In this document: piece after piece, positions 821-28,930 of the stretch
Position numbering within the stretch: position 1 is the first letter of the stretch
How the letters are laid out: the number at the start of each line of letters is the position of its first letter
Source: a virus
Reading direction: 5' to 3' (one strand)
DNA length: 36,019 nucleotides
IMG/VR virus record: IMGVR_UViG_3300030389_003158
Span: 3,643 to 39,661 of that record
Translations under genes and position numbers: made by a program
Notes under the pieces: model-generated
Told to the model about the DNA's origin: nothing
Databases searched by the model: none
What the model saw: the letters and a program-made list of their open reading frames with translations, nothing else

Positions 821-988
821 ATGGCAGAAGCACAAAAAACTAAAAAGACTAAGAAAGTAGCACCTAAGAAAGCTGCACCAAAACTTGCTGAAACTGTAAC
901 AGTATCACCATATAAGAAAAGTGGTATTATACTTGGTGCAACATTAGTAGGTTTATTAATACTAGTTAATATTTTAAGTAGCACATAA
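821..988 (+). CDS. Small single-pass membrane protein
   Basis: A 55-residue ORF with a strong ribosome site (AAAGGAG, 7 bases before the ATG). The first 33 residues are rich in Lys, Ala and Thr; one hydrophobic segment (about residues 36-54, starting IILGATLVGLLI) reaches almost to the end. This predicts a tail-anchored membrane protein with a basic cytoplasmic N-terminus. It begins 34 bases after the virion-type gene and ends just before the next micro-gene, so it is probably co-transcribed. Function unknown. Confidence 0.8.
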   Translation: MAEAQKTKKTKKVAPKKAAPKLAETVTVSPYKKSGIILGATLVGLLILVNILSST

Positions 989-989
989 A

Positions 990-1166
990 ATGAAAGAACA
1001 TAAACATGAGAGACGATTTACAAGTAAAATGCAAGCAGATTCATTTTATTCTGTTGCTAAATACGATTTAAGCATGGACTGTAGTTTACCTTACCATTTT
1101 AGAAATAGATGGATTGTAGAGTACAGTGGATGTCCTTCATGTAAATGTGATATGAAAGAAAAGTAA
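990..1166 (+). CDS. Small hypothetical protein with C-terminal cysteines
   Basis: A 58-residue ORF starting one base after the previous stop (TAAAATG), a spacing typical of translational coupling. It is rich in His, Lys and Arg at the start and ends with GCPSCKCDMKEK; this CxxCxC cluster and an earlier Cys (residue 31) could bind a metal. No family recognised. It is followed 12 bases later by the exported Asn/Thr-rich protein. Confidence 0.65.
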   Translation: MKEHKHERRFTSKMQADSFYSVAKYDLSMDCSLPYHFRNRWIVEYSGCPSCKCDMKEK

Positions 1167-1178
1167 AAGGGGATACTA

Positions 1179-2144
1179 ATGGGGATAAAAAATAGGGTAA
1201 AAGAAGCGACTGTACTAGTTGTTTCATTTAGCATGGTATTAAGTCTAGCCTTATCTACCACTCTTAAAGGTGAAGACTCAAACATAACAAATACAACGAC
1301 TAGTACGGTAACTTCAACAAATACAAATACCAATAACAATACAAATAACAATACAATTAATAGCACATCTGTTGCAACAAATAATAATAACAATATAAAT
1401 ACTAGCACTATAACTGCAACAAACAACAATACTAATATAAATACTAGCACATCTAATGTAACATCTAATATAACGCAAACTCAAGATGTAACTAATACTA
1501 GTACTATAACGTCTATAGGAACGAATACAAATACTAGCACATCTACTAGTACAAATAACAATACAAATTTAAATACAAATAATTCTACAAGCATTTCTTC
1601 TGTATCTACAGAAAGTATAAATCAAAACACAAATCAAAACACAAATATAAATACTAATAGTAATACTAGCACTAGTGTATCTGAAAATAGTTCTACACAA
1701 AAAGTAACACAAAGAATTAAAACTGCTCCTCCCTCCGCCATAGCTCCTTCGATAATGTCCTATTCTCAGGACCTGTGCACCACAGGAGCTAGTTCAGCCG
1801 TTCAAACTCAATTCTTTGGTGTATCATCTGGTAGAAGTGTAAGAGACGAAAACTGCGAAAGATTAAAAAACTCTAAAGCTCTTTATGATATGGGAATGAA
1901 GGTTGCAGCAGTTGCTCTACTCTGTGAAAATCCTGGCGTGTGGAGATCGATGATGCAAGCAGGAACTCCTTGTCCGTATAAAGGTAAAATAGGGCAAGAA
2001 GCTAAGTTAGCTTGGGAAGAAAACCCACAAGATAGGCCTGATTGGGAAGAAGTAAAGAAAGAAATCTCTACCCATGAGTTTAAAGCATATAAGAAAAAGG
2101 ATTTCTGTAAGCGTTATTCTACACACAAACTATGCTCAGACTAA
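1179..2144 (+). CDS. Exported Asn/Thr-rich protein with conserved Cys-rich C-terminal domain
   Basis: 321 residues, started by AAGGGG a few bases before the ATG. Residues 1-30 form a signal peptide or membrane anchor (basic start, then VLVVSFSMVLSLAL). About residues 33-178 are low-complexity Asn/Thr/Ser sequence encoded by degenerate direct repeats. Residues about 183-321 form a compact domain with six cysteines (DLCTTG, ENCERL, ALLCEN, TPCPYKG, DFCKRY, KLCSD) and a GMKVAAVALLCE segment; I recall similar domains in other marine phage proteins of unknown role. Paired cysteines after a signal sequence suggest folding in the periplasm or on the virion. The stop overlaps the next gene by 13 bases. 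Function unknown; a surface adhesin or envelope factor is inference. Confidence 0.8.
   Translation: MGIKNRVKEATVLVVSFSMVLSLALSTTLKGEDSNITNTTTSTVTSTNTNTNNNTNNNTINSTSVATNNNNNINTSTITATNNNTNINTSTSNVTSNITQTQDVTNTSTITSIGTNTNTSTSTSTNNNTNLNTNNSTSISSVSTESINQNTNQNTNINTNSNTSTSVSENSSTQKVTQRIKTAPPSAIAPSIMSYSQDLCTTGASSAVQTQFFGVSSGRSVRDENCERLKNSKALYDMGMKVAAVALLCENPGVWRSMMQAGTPCPYKGKIGQEAKLAWEENPQDRPDWEEVKKEISTHEFKAYKKKDFCKRYSTHKLCSD
1285..1690 (+). repeat. Degenerate Asn/Thr/Ser-coding direct repeats
   Basis: Within the exported protein gene, short units such as AATACAAAT, AATACTAGCAC and AACAATACAAAT recur many times with variation (copies of AATACTAGCAC lie near 1397, 1439 and 1529). They encode a flexible Asn/Thr/Ser stalk. 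The reverse strand of this block gives a false hydrophobic ORF. Confidence 0.8.
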
Positions 2145-4162
2145 TATTCATCTTATTGTTTAGCACTTCAGTGCAAGCAACAGATCCTACGTTCACTGTA
2201 GGCACTGATCCTATTATTGATATAACAAGTACAGGCACAGGTCTTAGCTTAGGCGATGATCAAATGTCTGGGATGAAAAATATTGGTTTTGATTTTACCT
2301 TCTATGATCAGACTTTCTCTCAAGTAAATATATCTATGAACGGTTTCTTTACCTTTCAGTCAAACTTTTCTGTACCTAGATCGAGAAACTACTTATCCGA
2401 AACACTACCTGCTACTTCATTCAATTACTCTGTCTTTCCTGCATGGTCGGATTATATTAGAAGATCTAGTGGCAACCAATCTCCCTATATAAAAACATTT
2501 GGACAAACGTCAGATACAGATCAATATTTTGTCATTATGTGGGACAATGTTTCTGAATATAGTAACGGATTAAAAAGCACTTTCCAGGCTATATTATATG
2601 AAACAACTAATGAAATATCTTTTCGCTATGATGAGCTTCGTATTCAGAATCACGATTTGACAATAGGATTGCAAGGCAACAATGAAGCTGTAACGTATTT
2701 AAGGTATGAAGACACCAATAGCACAACCTACATTGAAACTGACAATTTTAGTTTAACTACAGCAGAAGTTGTAGATGAATCATTTAGTAACTTATCTTCT
2801 GAGTGTTTAGTTGATTCTGATTACTCAGAACTTTGTGATGTATATGATTTAACATTTAATACAGAAGAAGATGACGATTTTTATTTACAAGGCTCAGGAG
2901 TTTCTGATGCCATGTTGTTAGGCTATGATGATGAGGAGGATTTTTATGGGTTCAACACTGAAGAAGTTTATACAGGAACATCTGTTTTTTCTGCGGTTAC
3001 TGATAGCAGGGATGGTGGCGGTACTTACTATGATGACATTGGTAGCATTAGCTATTTTGACTATGATACAGGGGATGTAATAGAAAATGAAGACACTTTT
3101 GATAATTTTGATATACTTGATTTTGGGGATTATACTTTGGATAATAGTGAGGAAGGAACACTAGCTTTTATAGAAATAGATTTAGATGTGTTACCACTAC
3201 CAGATACACTACCTGACATAAGACTAACTGAAGACGAGTTTGTAGAGTTTGCTCAACATATGGATGAACATTTTGATTTTGAAGATGAAATGGATAGAGA
3301 AACATGGGATGAGCAGTTTGAAGACTTTGAAGAACCTATCGAAGAAGAAATAGAACAAAGAGAAGAACTAGAGGAGCAGTATGAAGAAGAAATATTAGAA
3401 GAAGAGGAAGAAGCATTAGATGAATCTATTGATGAGATAAGCCCAGAAGAAGTGGAAGAAGGTAATCCGGAAAGGTCTGAAAGAAGAAGACAACTAGTAA
3501 GAAACAACATTAATGCTACAAATAGAACAACTTCAAATATAGTGAACTCTAGTATATCTGCAGGACAATCTTCACAAAATGTGAACTCAGGTGGTAGCTC
3601 TTCTAGTGCTGTTGTATCATCAAGTGGTGGAGGTGTTTCTACATCTAACTCCCCTAGTATATCTGCTCAAATATCTGCAGCACAAGTACAAACTAATACA
3701 GTACTACAATCTATAGAAGTTATACCTATGCCTTCAATGGACAATACACCTTCTGTTGCTATGGCAGAGGTCCAGGTAACCACTATGGAAAATCAAATAC
3801 AAAGTGTTACATCATCTGTAATGACATCGTCAGAAGCAGATCAAATAGCAGAAGAAGTAGTTGCTAGTAACATAAGACAGCAACAAGAAAATTCCCAGGC
3901 TCAACAAGAAGAGTCTGGTGAATATGATTCTCAAGGCCAAACTAATTTAATTGCCTTTATGAATTATGTACCAAACTTTAATAGTTATTCGGCTGTTACT
4001 ATACCAGATCAAACAAACTGGTATCAGCCTACTCAGATATATGCAGAAGCTATGTTGAGGGACAATGGTAATGCATATGGAGAACTAGTTAATACTAGTA
4101 TGAGTACTTTGTATGATGTGATACAATCACAGCCTGTACAATTATTTATAGATAGGAGATAA
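2132..4162 (+). CDS. Large exported protein: beta-sandwich N-terminus, acidic and Ser-rich linkers
   Basis: 676 residues. Residues 1-16 are a clear signal peptide (LRLIFILLFSTSVQA, then TDPTF). About residues 44-225 have the rhythm of nidogen-like or related bacterial extracellular beta domains: FDFTFYDQTFSQVNISMNGF, then FPAWSDYI, FVIMWDNV, and FQAILYETTNEISFRYDEL followed by IGLQGN. About 370-445 is a Glu-dense, probably coiled-coil segment; about 450-530 is Ser/Asn/Gly-rich; the last 60 residues (from about TNLIAFMNYVPNF) look like a separate conserved module. The start overlaps the previous gene by 13 bases and has no clear ribosome site, so coupling is likely. It could be a receptor-binding or envelope-exposed protein, but the Sec signal is unusual for a virion component. 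Function not known. Confidence 0.8.
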   Translation: MLRLIFILLFSTSVQATDPTFTVGTDPIIDITSTGTGLSLGDDQMSGMKNIGFDFTFYDQTFSQVNISMNGFFTFQSNFSVPRSRNYLSETLPATSFNYSVFPAWSDYIRRSSGNQSPYIKTFGQTSDTDQYFVIMWDNVSEYSNGLKSTFQAILYETTNEISFRYDELRIQNHDLTIGLQGNNEAVTYLRYEDTNSTTYIETDNFSLTTAEVVDESFSNLSSECLVDSDYSELCDVYDLTFNTEEDDDFYLQGSGVSDAMLLGYDDEEDFYGFNTEEVYTGTSVFSAVTDSRDGGGTYYDDIGSISYFDYDTGDVIENEDTFDNFDILDFGDYTLDNSEEGTLAFIEIDLDVLPLPDTLPDIRLTEDEFVEFAQHMDEHFDFEDEMDRETWDEQFEDFEEPIEEEIEQREELEEQYEEEILEEEEEALDESIDEISPEEVEEGNPERSERRRQLVRNNINATNRTTSNIVNSSISAGQSSQNVNSGGSSSSAVVSSSGGGVSTSNSPSISAQISAAQVQTNTVLQSIEVIPMPSMDNTPSVAMAEVQVTTMENQIQSVTSSVMTSSEADQIAEEVVASNIRQQQENSQAQQEESGEYDSQGQTNLIAFMNYVPNFNSYSAVTIPDQTNWYQPTQIYAEAMLRDNGNAYGELVNTSMSTLYDVIQSQPVQLFIDRR

Positions 4163-4164
4163 GC

Positions 4165-4431
4165 ATGAAAAACATATTACCAAAACTACAGCAGTACATC
4201 ACCATTGTAGGGGTCATTACAGCCATAGGCGGGGGCTTCTACACCTGGGGACAATTTAACTTACGACTTGATAACATTGAAAAGAAAAAAATTAAGACTG
4301 TAAACATTGCACCATTGAATGAATCCATAGCTGAATTATCAACACAAGTAGAAGGCCTTGAAAAAAGATTAGATAGGCTTGAAGGAAGGTTTGATAAAAT
4401 AGGTAACAACGATAATCCTCTAGCTAATTAG
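4165..4431 (+). CDS. Small membrane-anchored coiled-coil protein
   Basis: 88 residues, with GGAG upstream of the ATG and two bases after the previous stop. About residues 10-32 form one membrane segment (ITIVGVITAIGGGFYTWGQF), followed by a coiled coil with heptad leucines (residues about 50-78, e.g. VEGLEKRLDRLEGRFDKI). The layout (short N-terminus, one membrane helix, coiled coil) resembles inner-membrane spanin-like or scaffold proteins, but no family can be claimed. Last gene of the left-end + operon, directly before a terminator, so probably linked in function to the two exported proteins before it. Confidence 0.75.
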   Translation: MKNILPKLQQYITIVGVITAIGGGFYTWGQFNLRLDNIEKKKIKTVNIAPLNESIAELSTQVEGLEKRLDRLEGRFDKIGNNDNPLAN

Positions 4432-4737: not shown

Positions 4738-4983
4738 TTATTTCTTGTTTCCAACGTATAAACCAAACCAAGCAGCTCCTGCACCTACAATTACTGATAC
4801 AAAAGCTGATTGAGCATTAGTTGGGTCAGGTAAAGTCATAAACCAAGCACTAGTTTTATAAAACATTATTCCATACAATGTTATAAGTATGCGTGGAAAC
4901 ACTCTCCACTTATCGAATCCTTCAGCATTATTGTACCAGGATACTTTTTTTTCTACTTCTACTATTTTTATTTCTTCAGCCAT
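4738..4983 (-). CDS. Small two-helix membrane protein
   Basis: 81 residues, with GGAG seven bases before the ATG. There are two hydrophobic segments (about 30-50 around RILITLYGIMFYKTSAW and 58-77 around AFVSVIVGAGAAWFGLYVG) separated by a PDPTNAQ turn, and a short basic tail. Similar small proteins are frequent in the lysis region of phages of marine bacteria. Its position next to the holin-type gene suggests a role in lysis (accessory holin or antiholin), by context only. Last gene of the leftward arm. Confidence 0.75.
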   Translation of the reverse strand: MAEEIKIVEVEKKVSWYNNAEGFDKWRVFPRILITLYGIMFYKTSAWFMTLPDPTNAQSAFVSVIVGAGAAWFGLYVGNKK

Positions 4984-4994
4984 ATTATTTCTCC

Positions 4995-5213
4995 TTATAT
5001 ACCATACCCTGCCATATCACGTATTTTTTTTAATGATTCTTCTTCTCTTTTTATTTCTAATTTAGCACGATCATCTCTTTCTTTTTTAGTGCTATGTGCA
5101 TATACTTGTTCAAAAAATGAAGTGTCATGGCTATTAAAAGCATCATAAAATTCTTCTACAGTAAGCTCATACGATGTTAAAGTTTTTAAATTAAATAGAT
5201 ATACTAAATTCAT
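4995..5213 (-). CDS. Small hypothetical protein
   Basis: 72 residues. The start codon overlaps the stop of the holin-type gene (TAATG), so it is coupled. Hydrophilic, with a basic, helical C-terminal half (KKERDDRAKLEIKREEESL). No family recognised. It lies between two membrane proteins in the presumed lysis group. Confidence 0.65.
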   Translation of the reverse strand: MNLVYLFNLKTLTSYELTVEEFYDAFNSHDTSFFEQVYAHSTKKERDDRAKLEIKREEESLKKIRDMAGYGI

Positions 5214-5674
5214 TATTTGCTCCTTGCTTTAAAAACTCGCTGGCCAAACCAGAAACTTATGATGGCAGCAAAAACGGTTTTTGATTCCTCATCCCATGCA
5301 GCTAGTATAGCAGGCAGTAAGTCTTCTCCACCTTGTGTAGCTAAAAGTACATAAGTAATTTTAACAAATGCAAATATACTAAAAAAAGCATACGTTATAA
5401 CTGGTCGCACCGATGCTTGTAAAGCAGATATAAATGTAGATTTGTTTGCTTGTGCTAATGACTCAGCATGTTTGTACAAACCTTTTACTTCTTCTATATC
5501 TGCTTCTGCATCTAATTCTTTTAATTTTAGTTTACTTAATTCTGAAGCGTATTTAGCTTTCGCTTCAAGCATAAGTAGTTCTTGTTTATTAGCTTGTTTC
5601 TTTTCAAAGAATCCTAATACAGAAGGAAGAAAAGAAGTGCCAAAGCCGAGAACTGAGCCTAATAACGACAGCAT
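5213..5674 (-). CDS. Holin of the 3-TM type
   Basis: 153 residues. Resembles the GTA-type three-transmembrane holin family: a hydrophobic N-terminus (LSLLGSVLGFGTSFLPSVLG), a charged helical linker (about residues 25-80), then SVRPVITYAFFSIFAFVK and a terminal ISFWFGQRVF motif. The RPV..Y and FWFGxRxF signatures are what I recognise from that family. The role would be to open the inner membrane at the end of infection; no dedicated endolysin gene lies beside it, but a lysozyme-like domain is present in the virion protein at the right end. The start overlaps the stop of the upstream gene. Confidence 0.75.
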   Translation of the reverse strand: MLSLLGSVLGFGTSFLPSVLGFFEKKQANKQELLMLEAKAKYASELSKLKLKELDAEADIEEVKGLYKHAESLAQANKSTFISALQASVRPVITYAFFSIFAFVKITYVLLATQGGEDLLPAILAAWDEESKTVFAAIISFWFGQRVFKARSK

Positions 5675-28532: not shown

Positions 28533-28796
28533 ATGGCTAGAAACTATAAAAGGGAATACAAAAATTACCATAGTAAAGATGAGCAAAAAAAAAGAAGAGC
28601 ATCTAGAAACAAAGTAAGAAGAGCTGCTTTACGTAAAGGTAAGGTAACTAAAGGTGATAAGAAAGATATAGATCACAAAGATGGTAATCCTAAAAATAAT
28701 AATAAAAGTAATCTTAGAGTAGTATCAAGAAATAAAAATAGATCATTTCCTCGTAATAAAAAAGCAGGAAAAAAAATTGTAAGGAGAAAAAAATGA
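28533..28796 (+). CDS. Small HNH-like basic protein
   Basis: 87 residues; AAGGA five bases before the ATG. DIDHKDGNPKNNNKSNLRVV, followed by NKNRSFPRN, is the core of a small HNH nuclease (DH, N, NLR); the rest is Lys/Arg-rich. It could nick DNA, and small HNH proteins beside terminase genes often help packaging in other phages, but the short length leaves this open. Coupled to the lipoprotein gene by ATGA. Confidence 0.7.
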   Translation: MARNYKREYKNYHSKDEQKKRRASRNKVRRAALRKGKVTKGDKKDIDHKDGNPKNNNKSNLRVVSRNKNRSFPRNKKAGKKIVRRKK

Positions 28797-28930
28797 AAAA
28801 TTTAATAATTGTATTTGTATTAAGTTTAAGTTTAATAGGTTGTGCTGCGTCACAAATATCTTTAACAGCGTCTGCACCAAAAGGTAAAGACCTAGATATT
28901 ACTATTAAAACTAAAGAAAAAACTGAGTAA
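28793..28930 (+). CDS. Small lipoprotein
   Basis: 45 residues; AAGGAG before the ATG. Signal sequence MKNLIIVFVLSLSLIGC with lipobox LIGC (Cys17), then a 28-residue polar mature part (AASQISLTASAPKGKDLDIT). It should be anchored in the inner or outer membrane. Possible roles are superinfection exclusion or an outer-membrane spanin; neither is shown by sequence. Confidence 0.75.
   Translation: MKNLIIVFVLSLSLIGCAASQISLTASAPKGKDLDITIKTKEKTE

Follow-up and report, generated by a model that had tools for sequence, protein, structure and literature searches.

The window analysed here is a 36,019-nucleotide stretch of the IMG/VR virus record IMGVR_UViG_3300030389_003158 (positions 3,643 to 39,661), and the presence within it of genes for a portal/head-tail connector, TerL, TerS, a DnaB-like helicase, a PolA-like polymerase, and RNR supports its attribution to a phage. 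Close to its start lie three consecutive genes on one strand, here termed A, B, and C (Table 1), each of which encodes a protein with an export signal or a membrane anchor. The genes for A and B overlap by 13 nt and those for B and C are separated by 2 nt; the open reading frame coordinates thus bear out the three linked, exported or anchored products from which the preliminary description of this DNA had set out. Comparison of the window with its relatives revealed purifying selection in all parts of the trio (Ka/Ks 0.04-0.35). Apart from a weak similarity of C to Rz-like spanins (see below), none of the three proteins matched, in profile scans, a Pfam or NCBIfam family or a PHROG family of assigned function and, for B, no PHROG family of any kind was found.

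Table 1. Positions of the trio, its neighbors, and related features (window coordinates unless a locus is named).
Feature	Position	Strand	Remarks
Protein A gene	1179..2144	+	321 aa (ORF list)
Protein B gene	2132..4162	+	676 aa (ORF list)
Exchangeable B head segment	2230..2710	+	Allele-swap tract vs L123/L125
Protein C gene	4165..4431	+	88 aa (ORF list)
Companion small membrane protein	4738..4983	-	phrog_10198, unknown function; convergent with the trio in the window
Holin-like protein	5213..5674	-	Weak GTA_holin_3TM similarity, E=0.07
A-hairpin lipoproteins upstream of A	L009 1725-1940; L010 5600-5860; L012 886-1101		Roseophage-type phages

The small companion membrane protein has counterparts in 82 of 158 trio loci, where it is encoded mostly no more than two genes away from the trio or else between B and C, and the cluster to which the holin-like protein belongs recurs directly upstream of A in the myovirus Mosig. 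Upstream of A in the window (821-1166) are encoded a tail-anchored membrane protein of 55 aa and a protein of 58 aa with a CPSCKC motif. Further along the window, a lipobox protein of 45 aa is encoded near TerS (28793-28930), where an i-spanin-like neighbor is absent. It should be noted that a run of assembly Ns (L197, about 3600-3660) falls just before the start of the window, within a large gene upstream of the trio.

Protein A comprises a signal peptide, a stalk at about aa 30-180 that is rich in Asn, Thr, and Ser (these make up 112 of 146 residues), and a C-terminal Cys domain (about aa 185-321). The six cysteines ascribed to this domain from the outset are all present in the window member, and four of them are invariant across the family in the A alignments. 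The domain matches phrog_20531 (E=1e-14), a PHROG family of unknown function whose library entry records neither a function nor a linkage to B or C. In an AlphaFold model of the domain, helices were predicted at a pLDDT of about 80-92 (mean pLDDT 68.5), and a Foldseek search of the PDB with this model returned nothing at E<=0.001. Moreover, the Cys hairpin of A occurs a second time directly upstream of A in CRP-207, CRP-810, and MW202675, where it forms part of lipoproteins of 71-86 aa (E = 3e-4, 1e-5, and 0.02, respectively, for the match to A). Such lipobox-bearing paralogs of A were present in all three roseophage-type loci examined, and they provide the only direct hint, from three loci, that the A domain may be able to work near the outer membrane.

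Protein B begins with a signal peptide that ends, as judged by eye, at VQA-TD, followed by a beta head (aa 25-205), an acidic coiled-coil linker, a Ser-rich linker, and a conserved C-terminal module (about aa 580-676); the protein has a net charge of -105. Its AlphaFold model has a mean pLDDT of 56.2, with the head alone modeled confidently: the model contains the beta domain at about aa 25-205 (pLDDT about 90), an acidic coiled coil at 389-475, and a helical C-terminus. The head had been described as nidogen-like. A beta domain is indeed present, but Pfam NIDO matched 0 of 58 B proteins at E<=0.01, so that any similarity to NIDO would be remote, and the B profile instead matches the N-terminal domain of RemA (PDB 8gl6_D, RemA residues 1-171; E = 8e-13). 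A Foldseek comparison of the B model with the PDB gave no match at E<=0.001, and the sole match in a BFVD structure search was one uncharacterized phage protein. Like B, RemA, a gliding adhesin of Flavobacterium johnsoniae (PMC10994853), is Sec-exported, and the two N-terminal domains are homologous at profile level; unlike RemA, B is far shorter, and the N-terminal domain alone is common to both. Type 9 secretion is a Bacteroidota system (PMC12618676), and Pfam scans of B listed no T9SS C-terminal sorting domain.

Comparison among closely related phages revealed that the head of B has been replaced as a unit. The head tract is 66-73% identical to that of locus L123, as against 88-100% in adjoining windows, and pS is 0.667 within the tract versus 0.098 beside it; among the compared loci this swap represents one event, with two phages on each side. 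At least four sequence types can be distinguished among the B heads; a few heads are unassigned, and the B of locus L092 is headless. Further, several unrelated head types occur on the A-domain tree, where at least 16 changes of type are needed; this quick tree is based on few columns, and only its general picture is safe. Together, the swap tract and the changes of head type on the A tree indicate that the head is exchanged on a constant chassis. In another locus (L181, 8468-10609), B contains an extended series of Cys repeats with the pattern C..NPL...CPGY.

Protein C consists of one N-terminal transmembrane segment and a coiled coil that terminates in a DNPLAN motif. The tripeptide NPL occurs within the last 10 residues of 112 of 113 C proteins of the family, compared with 2 of 1541 other ORFs. 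C is weakly similar to the Rz-like spanin family phrog_739 (E=6.5e-4). Two proteins that GenBank lists as 'lysozyme', CRP-207 gp73 (L009 3292-3873) and CRP-810 gp51 (L010 7204-7626), are really C-family coiled-coil membrane proteins and were therefore left out of the count of lysis linkage given below. The assignment of HTVC115P gp52 to C, as placed in alignment A2, was rejected; that protein belongs to a separate gene pair, and the true C of this phage is gp49.

Loci were gathered mostly via A and in some cases via B, and a total of 182 had at least 4.5 kb of sequence downstream of A. Among these 182 loci, some of which are near-copies and hence not independent cases, 178 encoded a C with an NPL ending and a match to the C profile, and a B of 180 aa or more was encoded in 169; in 155 of the latter, A and B overlapped or were separated by no more than 30 nt. 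The trio has thus proved to be a conserved block, the point on which the preliminary description had staked its proposal. N-terminal hydrophobic segments were detected in 94% of A, 71% of B, and 96% of C proteins, compared with about a tenth (10-13%) of the remaining ORFs in these loci. A tblastn search found A in 11 phage records, namely six isolated pelagiphages (HTVC202P, HTVC023P, HTVC115P, HTVC033P, Baldr, and the myovirus Mosig), two roseophages, an autographivirus fosmid genome, and two spring-water contigs, and in nearly all of them A is followed by a large exported gene and then by a small TM-coiled-coil gene. Additionally, at least 594 viral contigs were confirmed in a scan with an A alignment, and at least 334 were confirmed using the A of HTVC115P, a set that may overlap with the former. 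For the genome scan, alignment A4 was used, since A1 was too diverse. A total of 28 loci came from genome collections; nearly all are MAG contigs of mixed taxa, and they are probably binned phage contigs rather than sequences of cellular origin. Few cultured phages in the collection carry A, which implies that the function of the trio is dispensable.

Given this distribution, it is very improbable that A, B, and C are three independent exported genes that share a neighborhood by chance and have no joint function. The independent variation of the B head and the A stalk would agree with such a chance arrangement, as would the other genes that separate B from C in HTVC115P and the freshwater-type loci (L177 and kin), but an identical gene order in 169 to 178 of 182 loci across phage families, with A and B tightly spaced, is not expected without joint selection.

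The surroundings of the trio link it to lysis genes in part of the loci. Among 47 loci whose flanks are long, 25 have a detected endolysin or holin cluster in the vicinity of the trio, a count that has no rigorous chance expectation. Some contigs carry cassettes of the type holin-A-B-C-Rz-Rz1-endolysin, and Rz-like (phrog_739) and lipoprotein genes stand beside the trio in some cassettes. The autographivirus S28-C10 has the trio between a holin-like gene and TerL, a slot that is occupied by lysis genes in T7. HTVC202P, HTVC115P, and Baldr have their annotated endolysin at a considerable distance from the trio, and the trio of Mosig is located near primase and RNR, outside the structural block. 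In most genomes seen, the trio is on the strand of the structural genes, which suggests late expression. Since the gene for an exported Cys protein has a holin-like neighbor in Mosig, S28-C10, and many contigs, a role in the timing of lysis might be envisaged, comparable to that of T4 RI, a periplasmic antiholin whose target is a holin with a domain in the periplasm. Such a role is improbable: known lysis regulators do not share the large size, acidity, and variability of B, and PHROG scans linked none of the proteins to known antiholins or T holins.

The trio also often adjoins structural genes, and the B head and the Asn/Thr-rich stalk of A resemble, in our inference, the designs of fibers. 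The proteins could accordingly be virion appendages, that is, fiber or decoration proteins with unusual N-termini. The preliminary description had itself named ordinary virion fibers as the alternative to its proposal, and they are poor candidates: export or anchor segments are almost always present in A and C and mostly in B, C is a membrane protein, and HTVC033P, Baldr, and CRP-207 have tail-fiber genes of their own, so that the trio has not replaced the fiber in these phages.

Two-component spanins (Rz/Rz1; Kongari et al., 2018, PMC6139136) offer a closer comparison. Like the trio, they combine a small type II-like inner-membrane coiled-coil protein with a Cys-containing exported partner, and the trio shares with them a position among lysis genes in part of the loci. 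C resembles an i-spanin in its single transmembrane segment and coiled coil, with a membrane orientation that is predicted. Unlike spanins, the trio comprises three proteins rather than two and includes a large exchangeable beta head. Membership in the canonical two-component class was rejected, as A and B lack a lipobox in nearly all members (among 182 A and 169 B proteins, a lipobox-like pattern was found in only two of each).

The trio-bearing pelagiphage isolates encoded no lipobox lipoprotein in the sequences scanned, whether complete or partial, an absence that is approximate because the scan used a simple pattern that recovered the expected lipoprotein in one of two control contigs. Judged by the criterion that Kongari et al. 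(PMC6139136) applied, these isolates therefore look spanin-less. Three pelagiphages without the trio likewise had no lipobox lipoprotein in the same scan, so the absence belongs to these phages rather than to the trio and does not discriminate. The idea that the trio replaces missing spanins is weakened by these controls and by several contigs in which the trio stands beside canonical Rz/Rz1-like genes, where it is therefore not simply a spanin replacement. 

A separate pair of proteins, phrog_20984 and phrog_24646, is found in HTVC142P (gp47/gp48; L333 35770-36334) and HTVC115P (gp51/gp52; L331 26900-27467). The pair comprises a TM-coiled-coil protein and a small exported protein with two Cys residues, adjoins a holin-like gene before TerL in HTVC142P, and is possibly a spanin-like pair that dispenses with a lipoprotein. 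Its TM-coiled-coil member matches the C profile with an E of about 1e-7 to 1e-9, possibly owing to coiled-coil bias. The pair includes neither A nor B, and HTVC115P carries it in addition to the trio.

It is tentatively proposed here that the trio encodes a trans-envelope complex anchored by C that most likely acts on the outer envelope late in infection. The three proteins would be made together during infection and exported via the Sec machinery of the host. C would be held in the inner membrane by its N-terminal transmembrane segment, with the coiled coil ending in NPL located in the periplasm, while A and B would be released into the periplasm and assemble with C. The contacts would be made by the near-invariant parts, namely the Cys domain of A, the C-terminal module of B, and the NPL tail of C, and the stalk of A and the acidic coiled coil of B would extend toward the outer membrane. 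There, the exchangeable head of B may engage envelope material, as may, in roseophages, the lipoprotein copy of the A hairpin. At the end of infection, the complex would weaken or open the outer envelope and so perform the task of spanins with a different architecture.

An exported, envelope-associated complex made during infection, as envisaged in the preliminary description, fits the data. With regard to the specific functions listed there (receptor masking, superinfection exclusion, cell aggregation, or a lysis aid), an envelope or lysis role is cautiously preferred here to aggregation and receptor masking, since domains of the A type also occur as lipoproteins and no outer-membrane export route is encoded. 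A device that serves lysis alone would not be expected to have a diversified, lectin-type head, which speaks against a lytic role. The head is central to the main rival explanation, rather unlikely in our estimation, in which the proteins form a surface or periplasmic shield during infection: the B head would bind host glycans, receptors, or parts of incoming virions, and the infected cell or its debris would stop capturing competing or progeny phages (superinfection exclusion, or masking of receptors or debris). A head that is related to adhesins, that exists in at least four types and a headless form, and that is swapped between near-identical phages is what recognition of variable ligands would produce, and the cassette is accessory in cultured phages, as a shield might be. 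However, the lack of an export route to the outer membrane within the trio, the suggested late expression, which would be late for excluding a second phage, and the B of L092 without a head all argue against a shield.

Pelagiphages are known to carry another multi-gene, export-related cassette, the curli/T8SS genes (CsgG, CsgF, CsgA/B, FecR, and adenylate cyclase; Wittmers et al., 2022, PMC9599517), which resembles the trio in being common to several pelagiphage families. A, B, and C match none of these genes, and no CsgG/CsgF outer-membrane pore family was detected in them or in the scanned neighbors. No description of the trio was found in the open-access literature searched. As a gene system the trio is apparently undescribed, given that no protein matches a characterized family and that the architecture fits no system tested. 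It is possible, if somewhat doubtful, that the C-anchored complex proposed above represents a new class of trans-envelope machine, in which a constant three-protein chassis bears an exchangeable adhesin-type head and which is common to podo-, myo-, and autographivirus families. Its hosts would then be, with the same reserve, dominant marine Alphaproteobacteria, and its role would be to open the outer membrane, or to control the envelope, in the absence of canonical spanins.

SAR11 phages rank among the most abundant viruses of the ocean, and the means by which marine phages without spanins breach the outer membrane have yet to be established (PMC6139136). Found in hundreds of viral contigs as well as in pelagiphages in culture, and without an annotated function, these three genes, with their defined constant core, are a concrete candidate for this step. 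If the trio is an envelope-opening device, it would constitute a new kind of spanin-like machine; if it instead serves exclusion or adhesion, marine phages would have in it a widespread means of altering the envelope of the infected cell.

A variant of the cassette was observed in L177 (8404-11451) and also in L178, L179, L180, and L184, where three additional small exported proteins are encoded between a short B and C. These additional proteins had no Pfam match, and their reading as an usher pilus was rejected, there being no Pfam support for it. One of these loci, L180, also carries a gene for a transglutaminase-like peptidase (Peptidase_C93, below the cut-off).
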